Part shown: piece after piece, positions 44,294 through 49,618 of the stretch
Layout of the letters: each line of letters opens with the position of its first letter
Position numbering within the stretch: the stretch's first letter is position 1
DNA from: Deltaproteobacteria bacterium GWB2_55_19
Lineage (GTDB): Bacteria > Desulfobacterota > GWC2-55-46
Length of the DNA stretch: 64,000 nt
Assembly: GCA_001797465.1 (NCBI GenBank)
Contig: MGPQ01000010.1
Location: forward strand, 248,001-312,000
Reading direction: 5' to 3'
The notes under the pieces: model-generated
Told to the model about the DNA's origin: nothing
Databases searched by the model: none
Seen by the model: the letters and a program-made list of their open reading frames with translations, nothing else
Program-made: the position numbers and the translations under genes

Positions 44294-45208
44294 ATGGAGA
44301 GGATGGAGCTGACGCTCGGCCCCATATTGTTCGACTGGGGGCGCGGCGAGGTATTGAGGTTCTACGACGAGGTTGCGGACCTTCCAGTCGACCGCGTCTA
44401 CGTCGGCGAGGTCGTCTGCGTTAAAAAGCTCGGGCTCAATCTCGATGACGTTGCGGCCATCATAAAAAAGCTCGAATCCGCAGGCAAGAAGGTGACGCTC
44501 TCATCCCTCGCCGTCGTCTCTAACGAGGACGAGCTCGCCTTCACCCGTCGGCTCGCCGGTCTCCACGGGTCGATTGAGGCGAACGATATGTCGGTCCTTA
44601 ATATCGCTGACGCCTCCGTTAAAGAGGTATTCGCGGGCCCGCATATCACGTCCTACAACGCGCCGTCGATAGAGTTCCTGAAATCCATCGGTGTGGCGCG
44701 CGTCACTTTCCCGGTTGAGCTATCAAGGGAGTCGATGGCCTCTGCGATAAGGGAGACGGGAGTATTCGGCGAGGCCTTCGCCCACGGCAAGGTCCCTCTC
44801 GCCTTTTCCTGGCGGTGCTATACGTCGAGGGCACATGGTTTATCTAAAACCGAGTGCAGGCACCACTGCGCCAAATACCCGGACGGCATGGAGCTTAAGA
44901 CAGTTGACAATGGGCCGGTCTTCACAATAAACGGGACCTCCCTTTTGAGCGCGGACGTATACACGCTCGTGGAGTTCGTCGAGGACTTGAACGAGATAGG
45001 CGTGAGGGCGCTACGCGTCTCGCCCCAGAAGGAAGGGACGAGGGCGATAACCGAGGTGTTTAGAAAAAGGATAGAGGGGCGCCTCGGCCCGGATGAAGGG
45101 CTTGAGAAACTGAAGGCGCTCGGCGATCGTTTCTGCAACGGCTGGTACTCGGGGTCGGCGGGCAAGGACTATATAGAGAGGGCGAGGGAATTGAGCAAGA
45201 CACTCTAA
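44294..45208 (+). CDS. ubiV: Peptidase-U32-family O2-independent ubiquinone hydroxylation protein UbiV
   Basis: 304 residues. The N-terminus LTLGPILFDWGRGEVLRFYD and YVGEVVCVKK are UbiV-like. Four Cys (42, 175, 188, 192) have the C-x12-C-x3-C spacing of the E. coli UbiV [4Fe-4S] ligands (FSWRCYTSRAHGLSKTECRH, then HCAKYPDG). UbiV works with UbiU to hydroxylate the ubiquinone ring without O2. No UbiU is visible in this window. It opens a cluster with UbiK-like, UbiB, UbiE and UbiT proteins. Confidence 0.92.
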   Translation: MERMELTLGPILFDWGRGEVLRFYDEVADLPVDRVYVGEVVCVKKLGLNLDDVAAIIKKLESAGKKVTLSSLAVVSNEDELAFTRRLAGLHGSIEANDMSVLNIADASVKEVFAGPHITSYNAPSIEFLKSIGVARVTFPVELSRESMASAIRETGVFGEAFAHGKVPLAFSWRCYTSRAHGLSKTECRHHCAKYPDGMELKTVDNGPVFTINGTSLLSADVYTLVEFVEDLNEIGVRALRVSPQKEGTRAITEVFRKRIEGRLGPDEGLEKLKALGDRFCNGWYSGSAGKDYIERARELSKTL

Positions 45209-45219
45209 AGGAGGCTACC

Positions 45220-45636
45220 ATGGCTGACATCTTTGACAAGGCAATTTTAATCGGAATGGGCCTTGAGAAGAAGGCGAGAGAGATGCTCGAAGAGCTCCAG
45301 CGGGCCGGCAAGCAGGGGACGGATGAGCGCGCGGGCGTAAAGGCGGAAGAGACAGGCGCGCCTTCTTCCGAGGGGCTCCCCCCGAGGCAGGCGGTAGAGA
45401 ACAAGCTCGTGGAAGACGGCGTTGCCGTATTGAAAGAGTTCCTCGCCTTCGTAAAGGCCGGCAAGGAGAAGCTCGAAAAAGAGGTCTCTTCGTCATCCGG
45501 CAAGGTCTTCGAGAAGCTCCACGTCGCCTCTCAGGACGATATCGACATAATAAAAGAAATGGCGAGGACCGCGAGGGAGAAGGTAGACAAGCTGGAGAAA
45601 AGGGTAGAGGAGCTGGAAGCGAGGCTCGCGAAGTAA
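45220..45636 (+). CDS. Phasin/UbiK-like coiled-coil protein
   Basis: 138 residues. The N-terminal part is helical and charged (LIGMGLEKKAREMLEELQ), the middle is disordered. The C-terminal 40 residues (ASQDDIDIIKEMARTAREKV, then DKLEKRVEELEARL) follow the pattern of the BMFP/YqiC (UbiK) family coiled coil. UbiK assists the Ubi complex in E. coli, and the position between ubiV and ubiB fits such a role. It could equally be a phasin-like protein. It has a clear AGGAGG eight bases before the ATG. Confidence 0.62.
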   Translation: MADIFDKAILIGMGLEKKAREMLEELQRAGKQGTDERAGVKAEETGAPSSEGLPPRQAVENKLVEDGVAVLKEFLAFVKAGKEKLEKEVSSSSGKVFEKLHVASQDDIDIIKEMARTAREKVDKLEKRVEELEARLAK

Positions 45637-45651
45637 CCCCCGCGTCTTAAA

Positions 45652-47313
45652 ATGGCCAACAACGCCTTCAAGAACATCCGCCGCATCAACGAGATAGCGG
45701 TAACTCTCATCAGGTACGGCTTCGGCGGGCTCGTCTCCGAGCTCCACCTGTTTCCCCGCGCGCTCGCGCGGATAGAGCGCATATTCGTATCCAAAAAAAA
45801 GACCGAAGGGCTCTCGGTACCCGAGCGGATACGGATGGTCCTTGAGGAGCTCGGCCCGACCTACATAAAGCTCGGGCAGATCGCCTCGACAAGGGCCGAC
45901 CTCCTCCCGCCCGACTGGGTCGATGAGTTCAAGAAGCTCCAGGACATGGTCACGCCCATCCCTTTCGAGGACGTGAAGGCGGTGATTGAATCATCCCTTA
46001 AAGCGCCCCTCTCAACCAAGTTCAGCTCCTTTAACCCAGAGCCGGTCGCCTCGGCCTCTATCGCGCAGGTCCATTACGCGGAGCTTCAGGACGGCACGAA
46101 GGTCGCCGTCAAGGTGAAGCGCCCCGGCATAGACCGCATAATCGAGTCCGACATGTCGGTCATGAATACGGTCGCGGGTCTGCTGGACAAGTATGTCCCG
46201 GCCTCCCGGAGGTACCGCACCAGGGAGGTAGTAGCCGAGTTCGAGAGGGTCATAAAAAAAGAGCAGGACCTTTCCATCGAGGGCGTCAACATCAACCGCT
46301 TCTACAACCTCTTCAAGGGCGACCCGACGATACAGATACCGTTGGTCTACTGGGACTATACGGCCCAGGAAGTCCTTACGATGGAGCGCGTTTACGGCAC
46401 CCCGATAGACGAGGTTGAAAAGTTAAGGGCAAAGGGGTTGGACGTAAAGCCGATAGCCATCCGCGGCATAGAGTTATTCTTCAAGCAGGTCTTCGAGTTC
46501 GGCGTATTCCACGCCGACCTTCACCCCGGCAATATCTTCGTCCGCGACGACGGGGTGATCATATATCTGGACTTCGGCATCATAGGCAGGCTCGACCGGG
46601 ACTTGAGAAAGTACCTTGCCTCCATGCTCTATTACCTTGTCCGCGGCGATTACATGAGGATGGCCGCGGTCCACAGGGAGATGGGGCTCATCGGGGATGA
46701 TGTGAGCCTCGCAGAGTTCGAGGACGCGCTCCGGGACATATCCGAGCCGATATTCGGCAAATCCCTTGAGGATATCGACATCCCCGGGCTCCTTATGAAG
46801 CTCATACAGACGGCGCGTCAATTCAACATGACTTTACAGCCGAACCTCCTCCTCCTCCAGAAATCGATGGTCATCATAGAGGGCGTGGGCAGACAATTAT
46901 ACCCGGATGTGAATATGTGGGAGGTCGCCAGACCCCTCATCTACAAGTGGATGGCTAAGGAGAAGTTCTCCCCGAAGCAGATATTGGAGAGGGGGAGGGA
47001 AGGGATCGAGGAGCTTGCCGGAGCGGCGCTGGAGTTGCCCATCCAGGCTCACGCGCTCTTAAAGAGGGCGCTACGCGAGGAGTTGCGGATAGGTTTCGTC
47101 CACCACAGGCTCGAGAACGTAACCGAGGAGCTAAAAAACGCCGGTAAGAGGATAGGCGGGGGCATCATCGTCGCCTCGCTCGTCATCGGGGCCTCGATGG
47201 TCGCGGTATATTCCGGGCCTGAGGCTGTGCGCCTTCTCGGCCTGCCGGTCTTGAGCGACATAGGCTTCGTGCTCGCCGTAATATTCGGTTACAGGCTATT
47301 TTCGGAAAGGTAA
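45652..47313 (+). CDS. ubiB: ABC1/AarF atypical kinase family protein UbiB
   Basis: 553 residues. Kinase-like motifs are LGPTYIKLGQIASTRADLLP (KxGQ), ASASIAQVHYAEL (Ala-rich loop), VFHADLHPGNIFVRDDG and IYLDFGIIGRLDRD. Two C-terminal helices (IIVASLVIGASMVAVYSG; a second near the end) anchor it in the membrane. It has ATPase activity needed for ubiquinone assembly. The cluster context supports UbiB over other ADCK members. Confidence 0.93.
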   Translation: MANNAFKNIRRINEIAVTLIRYGFGGLVSELHLFPRALARIERIFVSKKKTEGLSVPERIRMVLEELGPTYIKLGQIASTRADLLPPDWVDEFKKLQDMVTPIPFEDVKAVIESSLKAPLSTKFSSFNPEPVASASIAQVHYAELQDGTKVAVKVKRPGIDRIIESDMSVMNTVAGLLDKYVPASRRYRTREVVAEFERVIKKEQDLSIEGVNINRFYNLFKGDPTIQIPLVYWDYTAQEVLTMERVYGTPIDEVEKLRAKGLDVKPIAIRGIELFFKQVFEFGVFHADLHPGNIFVRDDGVIIYLDFGIIGRLDRDLRKYLASMLYYLVRGDYMRMAAVHREMGLIGDDVSLAEFEDALRDISEPIFGKSLEDIDIPGLLMKLIQTARQFNMTLQPNLLLLQKSMVIIEGVGRQLYPDVNMWEVARPLIYKWMAKEKFSPKQILERGREGIEELAGAALELPIQAHALLKRALREELRIGFVHHRLENVTEELKNAGKRIGGGIIVASLVIGASMVAVYSGPEAVRLLGLPVLSDIGFVLAVIFGYRLFSER

Positions 47314-47314
47314 G

Positions 47315-47749
47315 ATGGAAAACGGGAAGATAAGGATAATCGGCGTCATACAGTGCGACTTCGCCCGCGAGAGGTGCAGCGGCTTCGGGTGCATGAACTC
47401 GTTCACCCAGAGGATAGACGCATTCGCGAGGTATAAGGACAACGACAAGATAATGCTCGTCCCCTTCAACTGCGGCGGGTGCCCCGGCAGGCGCATAAGC
47501 CGGGTAGCCGCGAACCTCATAAAGAGGGCGCAGAAAAAGGCTGAGGTGGAAAAAGACGAGATAGTGATACACCTGGCTTCATGCATAGTGACCGACAACG
47601 GCCATTATCCCCCGTGCCCGCACATAGATTACATAGAAAAGATATTGAAGAGGAAGGGGCTTAAGGTCAAGAAGGGTAGTTACAAGTCGAAGACCGCCAC
47701 AAGGCGTAGGGAAGAAGGCCTCTACGAGCCTTTTGATTGGGATGAGTAA
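47315..47749 (+). CDS. CGGC-domain putative metal-binding protein
   Basis: 144 residues, starting one base after ubiB. Cys-rich: VIQCDFARERCSGFGCMNSF, PFNCGGCPGRR (the CGGC motif), LASCIVT and PPCPHIDY. The family is thought to bind metal or an Fe-S cluster; its function is unknown. The basic C-terminus (KVKKGSYKSKTATRRREEG) is notable. It may help Fe-S supply for UbiV, but that is inference from position only. Confidence 0.85.
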   Translation: MENGKIRIIGVIQCDFARERCSGFGCMNSFTQRIDAFARYKDNDKIMLVPFNCGGCPGRRISRVAANLIKRAQKKAEVEKDEIVIHLASCIVTDNGHYPPCPHIDYIEKILKRKGLKVKKGSYKSKTATRRREEGLYEPFDWDE

Positions 47750-47777
47750 GGCGCCCTTTTATAAGGGCAGGGCGCCT
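47749..47777. terminator. Convergent hairpin between the CGGC gene and micropeptide 1
   Basis: AGGCGCCCT / AGGGCGCCT, a perfect 9-bp stem with an 11-base loop. It touches the stop codons of both converging genes. Confidence 0.6.
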
Positions 47778-47865
47778 ACGCGAGGAGGTTAAGGGCGCTT
47801 ACGGCTACGATTACGGCTATTACGGCAACACTTGCGGCTATCTCGAATACGGTCTTCTTTTTCAT
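47776..47865 (-). CDS. Hydrophobic micropeptide 1 (29 aa), tandem family
   Basis: 29 codons from ATG to TAG, with AGGAGAGG seven bases upstream on the minus strand. It begins MKKKTVFEIAASVAVIAVIV and ends VSALNLLA, giving a short basic start, one predicted membrane helix and a small polar tail. It is a clear paralogue of the next three frames, with conserved TVFE/TIFET and AVSALNL blocks. Conservation across four copies, each with its own ribosome site, supports coding. I do not recognise the family. An inner-membrane location is predicted. Confidence 0.75.
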   Translation of the reverse strand: MKKKTVFEIAASVAVIAVIVAVSALNLLA

Positions 47866-47889
47866 CGTTCCTCTCCTGGGCTTTGACTG

Positions 47890-47976
47890 TTAGATTACGA
47901 GGTTAAGGGCGCTTACGGCTACGACGGTCACTATCACGGCGAGGCTGGCAACGGTTTCGAATATCGTTTTTTTCAT
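47890..47976 (-). CDS. Hydrophobic micropeptide 2 (28 aa), tandem family
   Basis: 28 codons, ATG to TAA. It starts MKKTIFETVASLAVIVTVV and ends VSALNLVI. GAAAGGGG lies upstream as a weaker ribosome site. The gap to micropeptide 3 upstream is only 28 bases and to micropeptide 1 downstream 24 bases, so copies 3, 2 and 1 are probably one transcript. Confidence 0.78.
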   Translation of the reverse strand: MKKTIFETVASLAVIVTVVAVSALNLVI

Positions 47977-48004
47977 CTTTTTGCCCCTTTCGGTTTAAGG
48001 TTGC

Positions 48005-48088
48005 CTACATTACGAAGTTTACAGCGCTTACGGCTACGAGGGTCACTATTACGGCAAGGCTTGCAACGGTCTCGAAGATTCTGGTCAT
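48005..48088 (-). CDS. Hydrophobic micropeptide 3 (27 aa), tandem family
   Basis: 27 codons, ATG to TAG. It starts MTRIFETVASLAVIVTLVAV and ends SAVNFVM. AAGGAGAA is upstream. It differs from micropeptide 4 in only two residues near the C-terminus. A TATAAT box lies 46 bases upstream in a segment that is itself duplicated in front of copy 4. Confidence 0.8.
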   Translation of the reverse strand: MTRIFETVASLAVIVTLVAVSAVNFVM

Positions 48089-48133
48089 TTTGTTTTCTCC
48101 TTTTTTTTGGTTTGTGTTGCGTCTTATGTAGCT

Positions 48134-48139
48134 ATTATA
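48134..48139 (-). promoter_or_regulatory. -10 box of micropeptides 3-2-1
   Basis: TATAAT on the minus strand. The surrounding roughly 75 bases closely match those at 48290-48365. No -35 consensus is visible, so another sigma factor or an activator is possible. Confidence 0.5.
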
Positions 48140-48189
48140 CTTGAACGAGTATTAGAGGATTATTAGACCGGGGACCCGGCCCCTGAAAC

Positions 48190-48273
48190 CTACATCACCA
48201 AGTTCGACGCGCTTACTGCTACGAGGGTGACTATTACGGCAAGGCTGGCAACGGTTTCGAATATTCTGGTCAT
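48190..48273 (-). CDS. Hydrophobic micropeptide 4 (27 aa), tandem family
   Basis: 27 codons, ATG to TAG. It has the same start and core as copy 3 (FETVASLAVIVTLVAVSA) and the tail SNLVM. AGGAGAG is upstream. Synonymous third-base differences between copies 3 and 4 (GCA/GCC, ATC/ATA, GTG/GTC) with nearly unchanged protein suggest purifying selection at the amino-acid level. Confidence 0.8.
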   Translation of the reverse strand: MTRIFETVASLAVIVTLVAVSASNLVM

Positions 48274-48320
48274 TTTGTTCTCTCCTTTTGTTTTTGGTTT
48301 GTGTTGCATCTTATGGTTCC

Positions 48321-48326
48321 ATTATA
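48321..48326 (-). promoter_or_regulatory. -10 box of micropeptide 4
   Basis: TATAAT on the minus strand, 48 bases before the ATG, inside the duplicated upstream segment. It lies divergent to ubiE (start 48448). Confidence 0.5.
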
Positions 48327-48447
48327 CTCAGTCGATATTAGAGGATTATTAAACCGGGGACCCGGCGGCTTGAAATAATTACATAGGATAGAAGTTAAGC
48401 AAAATCAAGAAGTTAGGCTCGTCGCCCTTTCGGGGCTGGAGGCGGAT

Positions 48448-49194
48448 ATGTCCGAGAAGATGACCCATTTCGGGAACAGAACAGTCCCTGAGGAGAAAAA
48501 AGAAGAGCTCGTAAGGGAGGTCTTTGATTCCGTCGCGTCCAAGTACGACCTCATGAACGACCTCATGTCCATGGGGACGCACAGGATCTGGAAGAGGCTC
48601 GTTGCTGAGGAGACCGGGTTGAAGCCCGGAGAGTGCGCCATAGACGTCGCAGGCGGCACGGCGGATATCTCTCTCCTGATGGCCGAGAGGGTCGGGGAGG
48701 CCGGGTCTATCGTCGTCTTCGACATAAACCACGAGATGCTAAAAGTCGGACAAGAGAAGTGCATCGACCGGGGGTATCTCAAGAACATCAGGTTCGTCCA
48801 GGGAAACGCCGAGGAGATAGCCTTCGAGGACAATACCTTCCACTGCGCGACCGTCGGCTTCGGCATAAGGAACGTGACGCACCTCGACAGGGCCTTTGCC
48901 GAGATGGCCCGCGTCGTCAAACCCGGCGGCAAGGTGATTTGCCTCGAGTTCTCTCACCCGGAGAGCAAGCTCTTCGGCAAGCTCTACGACATGTATTCAT
49001 TTTCTTTTCTGCCAGCCGTGGGCGAGTTTATTACCGGTAACAGGTCCGCGTACGAGTATTTGCCGGAATCCATCAGGAAGTTCCCCCCGCAGGAGGAGTT
49101 GAAGAAGATAATGGAGGGTGTCGGGCTCTTTAAGGTCAGGTACTACAACCTCTTTAACGGCATCGCCGCGGTCCACATAGGAGTGAAGGTGTAG
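48448..49194 (+). CDS. ubiE: Demethylubiquinone/demethylmenaquinone methyltransferase
   Basis: 248 residues, class I SAM methyltransferase. SKYDLMNDLMSMGTHRIWKR and AIDVAGGTADISLLMAE are family motifs, as is GFGIRNVTHLDRAF. It methylates the quinone ring carbon. Sequence alone does not tell ubiquinone from menaquinone use, but flanking ubiV, ubiB and ubiT favour ubiquinone. It is followed one base later by ubiT. Confidence 0.96.
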   Translation: MSEKMTHFGNRTVPEEKKEELVREVFDSVASKYDLMNDLMSMGTHRIWKRLVAEETGLKPGECAIDVAGGTADISLLMAERVGEAGSIVVFDINHEMLKVGQEKCIDRGYLKNIRFVQGNAEEIAFEDNTFHCATVGFGIRNVTHLDRAFAEMARVVKPGGKVICLEFSHPESKLFGKLYDMYSFSFLPAVGEFITGNRSAYEYLPESIRKFPPQEELKKIMEGVGLFKVRYYNLFNGIAAVHIGVKV

Positions 49195-49195
49195 G

Positions 49196-49618
49196 ATGGA
49201 AAGGGAAGAGCTCAAAGAGAAGATAAGGGAGAAGTTCGTTAAATCCATGAGAGCGCCCTTGAAGGCGATCCCGCTCTGGATGGAGGCGATAGGCGTCGGC
49301 GTTTTCATCGCGCAGATTGTGGATGCGCACCCGAATTTCAAGGAACGCCTCGGAGAGATAGATGACAAGGTCTTTATGTTCGAGGCGATGGACATTGGGA
49401 AAAAGTTCTTCCTCCATATAAAGGACAGGGAAGTAAAGGTCGTCCCGCATATGCTTAGAACGCCGGACGTTGAAATGCGGGGGGAGGTAAAGGTGCTGGT
49501 CGATGTGCTGACAGGCAAGGAAGACCCGGACACGGTCTTCTTCTCAAGAAAGTTGGAAATAAGCGGGGACACGGCTGTGGCCATACACTTTAAAAATATA
49601 TTGGCGGGGTTGGGGTAG
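49196..49618 (+). CDS. ubiT: SCP2-domain ubiquinone accessory protein (UbiT-like)
   Basis: 140 residues with an SCP2 lipid-binding domain: MRTPDVEMRGEVKVLVDVL is replaced here by LRTPDVEMRGEVKVLVDVLT, then KEDPDTVFFSRKLEISGDTA and AIHFKNIL. UbiT binds the hydrophobic quinone intermediate in the O2-independent pathway with UbiU and UbiV. It starts one base after ubiE. UbiJ is the aerobic counterpart and is the main alternative, but it is longer. Confidence 0.85.
   Translation: MEREELKEKIREKFVKSMRAPLKAIPLWMEAIGVGVFIAQIVDAHPNFKERLGEIDDKVFMFEAMDIGKKFFLHIKDREVKVVPHMLRTPDVEMRGEVKVLVDVLTGKEDPDTVFFSRKLEISGDTAVAIHFKNILAGLG

Follow-up and report, generated by a model that had tools for sequence, protein, structure and literature searches.

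Tandem micropeptide genes in Deltaproteobacteria bacterium GWB2_55_19 as a probable output of an autoregulated two-component system

The micropeptide array and its promoter boxes

The subject of this study is an array of four tandem micropeptide genes in Deltaproteobacteria bacterium GWB2_55_19, together with the promoter box that precedes two of them. The array lies in a stretch of 64,000 nucleotides (from here: the window; contig MGPQ01000010.1, positions 248,001 to 312,000). The initial annotation had placed four minus-strand frames here, each with an ATG and a stop codon, and re-translation agrees with these frames and their coordinates. In the direction of transcription, the locus contains the following features:

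48321..48352, minus strand: putative activator box and -10 element of copy 4, TTAAT-AATCCT-CTAAT-N10-TATAAT, with the ATG 47 bp further on
48190..48273, minus strand: micropeptide gene copy 4, 27 amino acids, single hydrophobic segment, translation MTRIFETVASLAVIVTLVAVSASNLVM
48134..48166, minus strand: putative activator box and -10 element of copy 3, CTAAT-AATCCT-CTAAT-N11-TATAAT, with the ATG 45 bp further on
48005..48088, minus strand: micropeptide gene copy 3, 27 amino acids, translation MTRIFETVASLAVIVTLVAVSAVNFVM
47890..47976, minus strand: micropeptide gene copy 2, 28 amino acids, without a box of its own, translation MKKTIFETVASLAVIVTVVAVSALNLVI
47776..47865, minus strand: micropeptide gene copy 1, 29 amino acids, the most divergent copy, orthologous in genomes G002, G003 and G004, translation MKKKTVFEIAASVAVIAVIVAVSALNLLA
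47750..47776, minus strand: stable GC-rich hairpin in the gap that separates the array from the convergent CGGC-domain gene, folding z -4.4

Three clear ribosome-binding sites had been claimed, and sites of the AGGAG/GGAG type are indeed present at copies 1, 3 and 4, while copy 2 has the weaker AAGGGG. The description of the products as tandem, single-helix hydrophobic micropeptides below the size cut-offs usual in annotation is likewise supported. None of the window peptides tested against Pfam, NCBIfam and PHROGs gave a profile match in any of the three.

The genes form a repeat family of 105 nt in four copies with identities of 65-88%. Copies 3 and 4 are parts of a duplicated unit of ~186 bp that includes the leader and the promoter box, which had been overlooked at first reading. 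The box occurs at only these two places in the window and its reversed form has zero matches. Because copies 2 and 1 follow closely behind copy 3, each with a ribosome-binding site only, the array appears to consist of two transcription units, copy 4 alone and copies 3, 2 and 1, with copy 2 presumably co-transcribed behind copy 3. The hairpin at the end is a possible terminator; it lacks a U run and was not called in a terminator scan.

Purifying selection and distribution of homologues

The pattern of substitutions in the aligned copies confirms the four open reading frames as real genes under purifying selection. The ratio of non-synonymous to synonymous differences (pN/pS), pooled over 20 aligned codons of 13 copies from the window, G002 and G003, was 0.26 (pS 0.53, pN 0.14) and thus not near 1. 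Copies 3 and 4 were said to differ mainly at third codon positions, pointing to selection at the protein level, and their 20 core codons contain 7 synonymous against 2 non-synonymous differences. Between orthologous copies in congeners the differences were almost purely synonymous (synonymous/non-synonymous: copy 1 against G002 2/0 and against G003 4/0, copy 3 against G003 5/0). The frames are unbroken in G002, G003 and G004, and frame-breaking indels were not seen in the orthologous arrays.

Searches with a profile of four rows and then with one of 18 rows found conserved frames throughout the genus and in the family. Homologues with strong E-values were present in every genus member searched and in ~18 of 30 genomes from family f1, several of which have at least two loci. 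Outside this family the matches were weak and chance-like, mostly within long frames, and a search for related loci in named genomes returned two congeners only. Elsewhere in the genome to which the window belongs, related or similar micropeptides were found at C12:153093, C12:161739-162144 and C16:24043-24770, and relaxed boxes led to two further ones, at C5 and C19. Including the array, this genome has ~12 or more single-span micropeptides under or beside a box.

These positions bear on the suggestion that the peptides serve the ubiquinone machinery (UbiB/UbiE), either as small subunits or as regulators. The array does sit between the CGGC/UbiB block and ubiE, and a similar place by the CGGC gene is apparently kept in several other genomes, judging from shared flanking reading frames. 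However, homologues with the same box occupy many unrelated loci and are not restricted to the ubi locus, while the array has its own promoters and runs on the strand opposite to the neighbouring genes. We regard this explanation as highly unlikely, and a role in ubiquinone synthesis was dropped because most homologues lie elsewhere. That the peptides are subunits or regulators of some membrane complex in general is possible.

Association of the box with micropeptide genes

The box has the consensus YTAAT-N6-YTAAT-N10/11-TATAAT, in which an 11-bp direct repeat occupies the place of the -35 element. In several genera of these related groundwater bacteria it is present upstream of nearly all homologues that come first in their transcription unit, the exception being L029, where the second half-site alone is left. 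The strict pattern was present in 26 of 30 relatives, against 2 hits for the reversed control, and fell to background level outside the class. A scan of both strands of the array region for consensus sigma-70 promoters found none, as expected where the box replaces the -35 element; the lack of a -35 element is consistent with an activator-dependent promoter.

Within the 30 genomes, a ribosome-binding site, an ATG and a hydrophobic open reading frame of 20-50 amino acids followed 60 of 127 strict boxes, compared to 1 of 245 control TATAMT hexamers, which were taken from the same loci at >700 bp from the nearest box (Fisher p 4e-32). Hydrophobicity was taken as a Kyte-Doolittle mean over 17 residues >1.9, a simple scale from which membrane insertion is predicted. 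The micropeptide frames lie mostly 30-70 bp downstream of the -10 element. Among the 60 peptides, 23 belong to a large FE..A.LAVIV-type cluster and 8 to a second cluster, followed by four pairs and many singletons; because they fall into so many unlike groups, the box is not a by-product of one duplicated gene. With a relaxed -10 element, the window's own genome yielded 15 hits against 4 control hits, single relaxed sites being uncertain.

Hydrophobic peptides of ~20-30 amino acids, sometimes in tandem, are also typical of type I toxins such as Ibs, TisB and DinQ, and the initial annotation had considered toxin-like peptides. According to this explanation the peptides would be silenced by antisense RNA, their tandem copies being comparable to those of Ibs or TisB, and their size, hydrophobicity and arrangement would fit. 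However, an Rfam scan of the window gave no match, the promoter scan was empty on the opposite strand as well, and the folding of the copy 4 mRNA is not unusual (z +1.6). Where such toxins rely on antisense RNA, the array has instead a conserved putative activator box, a short A-rich leader and a good ribosome-binding site, and the presence of the peptides is linked to a chromosomal response regulator (see below). A toxin function is therefore very unlikely, and the box points rather to activation by a response regulator.

A candidate regulator operon

Among the box targets other than micropeptides, one operon was common. It encodes a cytochrome b561 (PF01292), an OmpR-family response regulator and a CzcS-like histidine kinase. 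The box was found on the coding strand upstream of 23 of the 24 operons with a locatable regulator start and on the opposite strand of none, the -10 element being relaxed to TANNNT in this count. With 266 bits, the response regulator scores just below the cut-off of 279 for its best model, CzcR/SilR/CopR, and it is not a member of the PmrA equivalog (188.5 bits, cut-off 330). As a side observation, a HAD-like gene often lies directly 3' of the kinase gene and usually has its own box (L119:3869-4234, L127:2987-3418, L254); a PepSY-like gene is linked to the operon in one genome.

The number of strict boxes follows the presence of this regulator, with a mean of 3.4 per genome with an orthologue versus 0.8 without (59 genomes; Mann-Whitney p 1e-5, uncorrected for phylogeny). 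A natural loss was found in genus g6. Five species (G009, G018, G024, G026 and G028), one of them a single-contig genome, have neither an orthologue of the response regulator nor any strict box, while their sister G029 has both. In front of the same gene for a DEAD-box RNA helicase, G029 has 2 boxes and 2 micropeptide genes, and G009, G018, G024 and G028 have none; for G026 just 332 bp were available there.

The b561-linked two-component system is thus probably the regulator of the micropeptide genes, as far as genome comparison can tell. Alternatively, the box could belong to another OmpR/PhoB-family regulator, for instance PhoB, and the b561 operon would be merely another of its targets. Many members of this family use 11-bp direct repeats near the -35 position, and a strict site in G035 (L134) is followed by micropeptide genes and then by a gene that is PsiE-like by eye. 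Yet the box is near-universal on the b561 operon, and boxes and this response regulator are jointly absent in g6, though its members keep a more distant regulator of ~57% identity. On these two grounds the b561-linked regulator was preferred to PhoB, and we consider control by another family member unlikely.

Several observations weigh against the b561-linked system. Orthologues of the response regulator, the kinase and b561 were not found in the window's own assembly. G016 has boxes and no detected response regulator, in an assembly of ~600 contigs; some outer members of the class have the regulator and few or zero boxes; and in G008 the regulator is present and the helicase locus is without a micropeptide gene. 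Moreover, about half of the strict boxes have no recognisable micropeptide gene behind them, and the box sites share descent, hence they are not phylogenetically independent and the statistics above are without correction for kinship.

The gap in the window's own assembly (G000) was followed by comparison with G001:C66:8000-47900 (L253, L254). Among seven further genes used as probes from G001:C66, five, including those for RNase J and DUF362, were unmatched and two had matches at paralogue level only (33-42% identity); an AKR orthologue was not found either. In total, ~35 kb are without an orthologue of any probed gene, in an assembly rated 100% complete. Because of this, it is more likely that the stretch with the regulator locus is missing from the assembly than that the regulator was lost and the boxes were kept.

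Proposed explanation and relation to known systems

Taken together, the sequence comparisons make it likely that an autoregulated two-component system controls many single-transmembrane micropeptides, those of the array among them. A dimer of the response regulator would bind YTAAT-N6-YTAAT at the place of the -35 element and recruit RNA polymerase to TATAAT. The resulting short mRNAs would be translated into hydrophobic peptides of 25-45 residues that insert into the inner membrane. By analogy to PmrR, MgrB and YohP of enterobacteria, their most likely task there would be to adjust or shield the membrane or its proteins in response to an envelope or redox signal. Relaxed boxes at G000:C12:82282, C12:147562, C12:150919 and C1:48510 (L305, L307, L300) lie near genes for DsbD_TM/CcdA, a dihaem cytochrome c, a TlpA-like thioredoxin and a BlaI-type repressor; the thiol- and heme-related genes among them suggest that the signal is perhaps thiol or heme redox.

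The operator resembles those of two characterized regulators. PmrA recognizes head-to-tail half-sites of the CTTAAT/CTTAAG type, 5 bp apart (PMC3973317), and the BqsR operator is TTAAG-N6-TTAAG (PMC4682146). The box described here is, like these, an 11-bp direct repeat with TTAA-type half-sites beside a -10 element, its period equals that of the BqsR operator, and, as in regulons of this type, a predicted operator precedes the regulator's own operon. BqsRS and QseBC/PmrAB likewise combine an OmpR-family response regulator with a histidine kinase, whereas here the regulator is nearest to the CzcR/SilR/CopR model, the half-site ends in T and the putative regulon is rich in micropeptides.

Among the peptides, PmrR is an enterobacterial membrane peptide that is expressed from a PmrA box and inhibits LpxT (PMC8129183). 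It shares the very small size, the single hydrophobic segment and a box of the CTTAAT/CTTAAG direct-repeat type; in E. coli it is a single gene overlapping pmrB, whereas the genes here are numerous, occur in tandem arrays and belong to several sequence families. MgrB, a membrane peptide and feedback inhibitor of PhoQ (PMC2789325), is a similar case of a small membrane peptide under a two-component system, the regulation here being predicted, but it is one peptide compared to tens of divergent ones. YohP is a stress-linked membrane protein of 27 amino acids in E. coli (PMC12719787). Its likeness lies in size and a single hydrophobic span. For YohP, we know of no tandem array or box of this kind.

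Membrane micropeptides under two-component control, such as PmrR and MgrB, are known one by one. Here a single operator apparently controls many of them, most below the size that standard gene callers report; the literature searched yielded no described micropeptide regulon. Evenly balanced, in our view, is the further proposal that, in this lineage of uncultured Deltaproteobacteria, the main output of the system consists of ~10 or more unannotated single-transmembrane micropeptides per genome, from several unrelated families and tandem arrays, acting as a combinatorial layer of membrane tuning. Such peptides could be found by their promoter instead of a coding signal, and annotation may widely undercount small membrane proteins. 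Because one genus has members with the regulator and members that lack it, it offers a ready comparison for the function of the peptides.

Genomic neighbourhood and further box loci

No tRNA or tmRNA gene was found in the scan for these. Genes for a U32 peptidase, UbiB (ABC1), a CGGC-domain protein, UbiE and SCP2 are located at 44294-49618 of the window; this set of genes resembles an oxygen-independent (UbiTUV-like) ubiquinone cluster.

In several genera, arrays of unlike micropeptide genes with boxes directly precede the gene for the DEAD-box RNA helicase (G000:C16:24043-24770 = L100; L105, L112, L115, L309). In one of these loci, G006:C9:95700-97300 (L115), five boxes occur within 1.4 kb, most of them with their own micropeptide gene.
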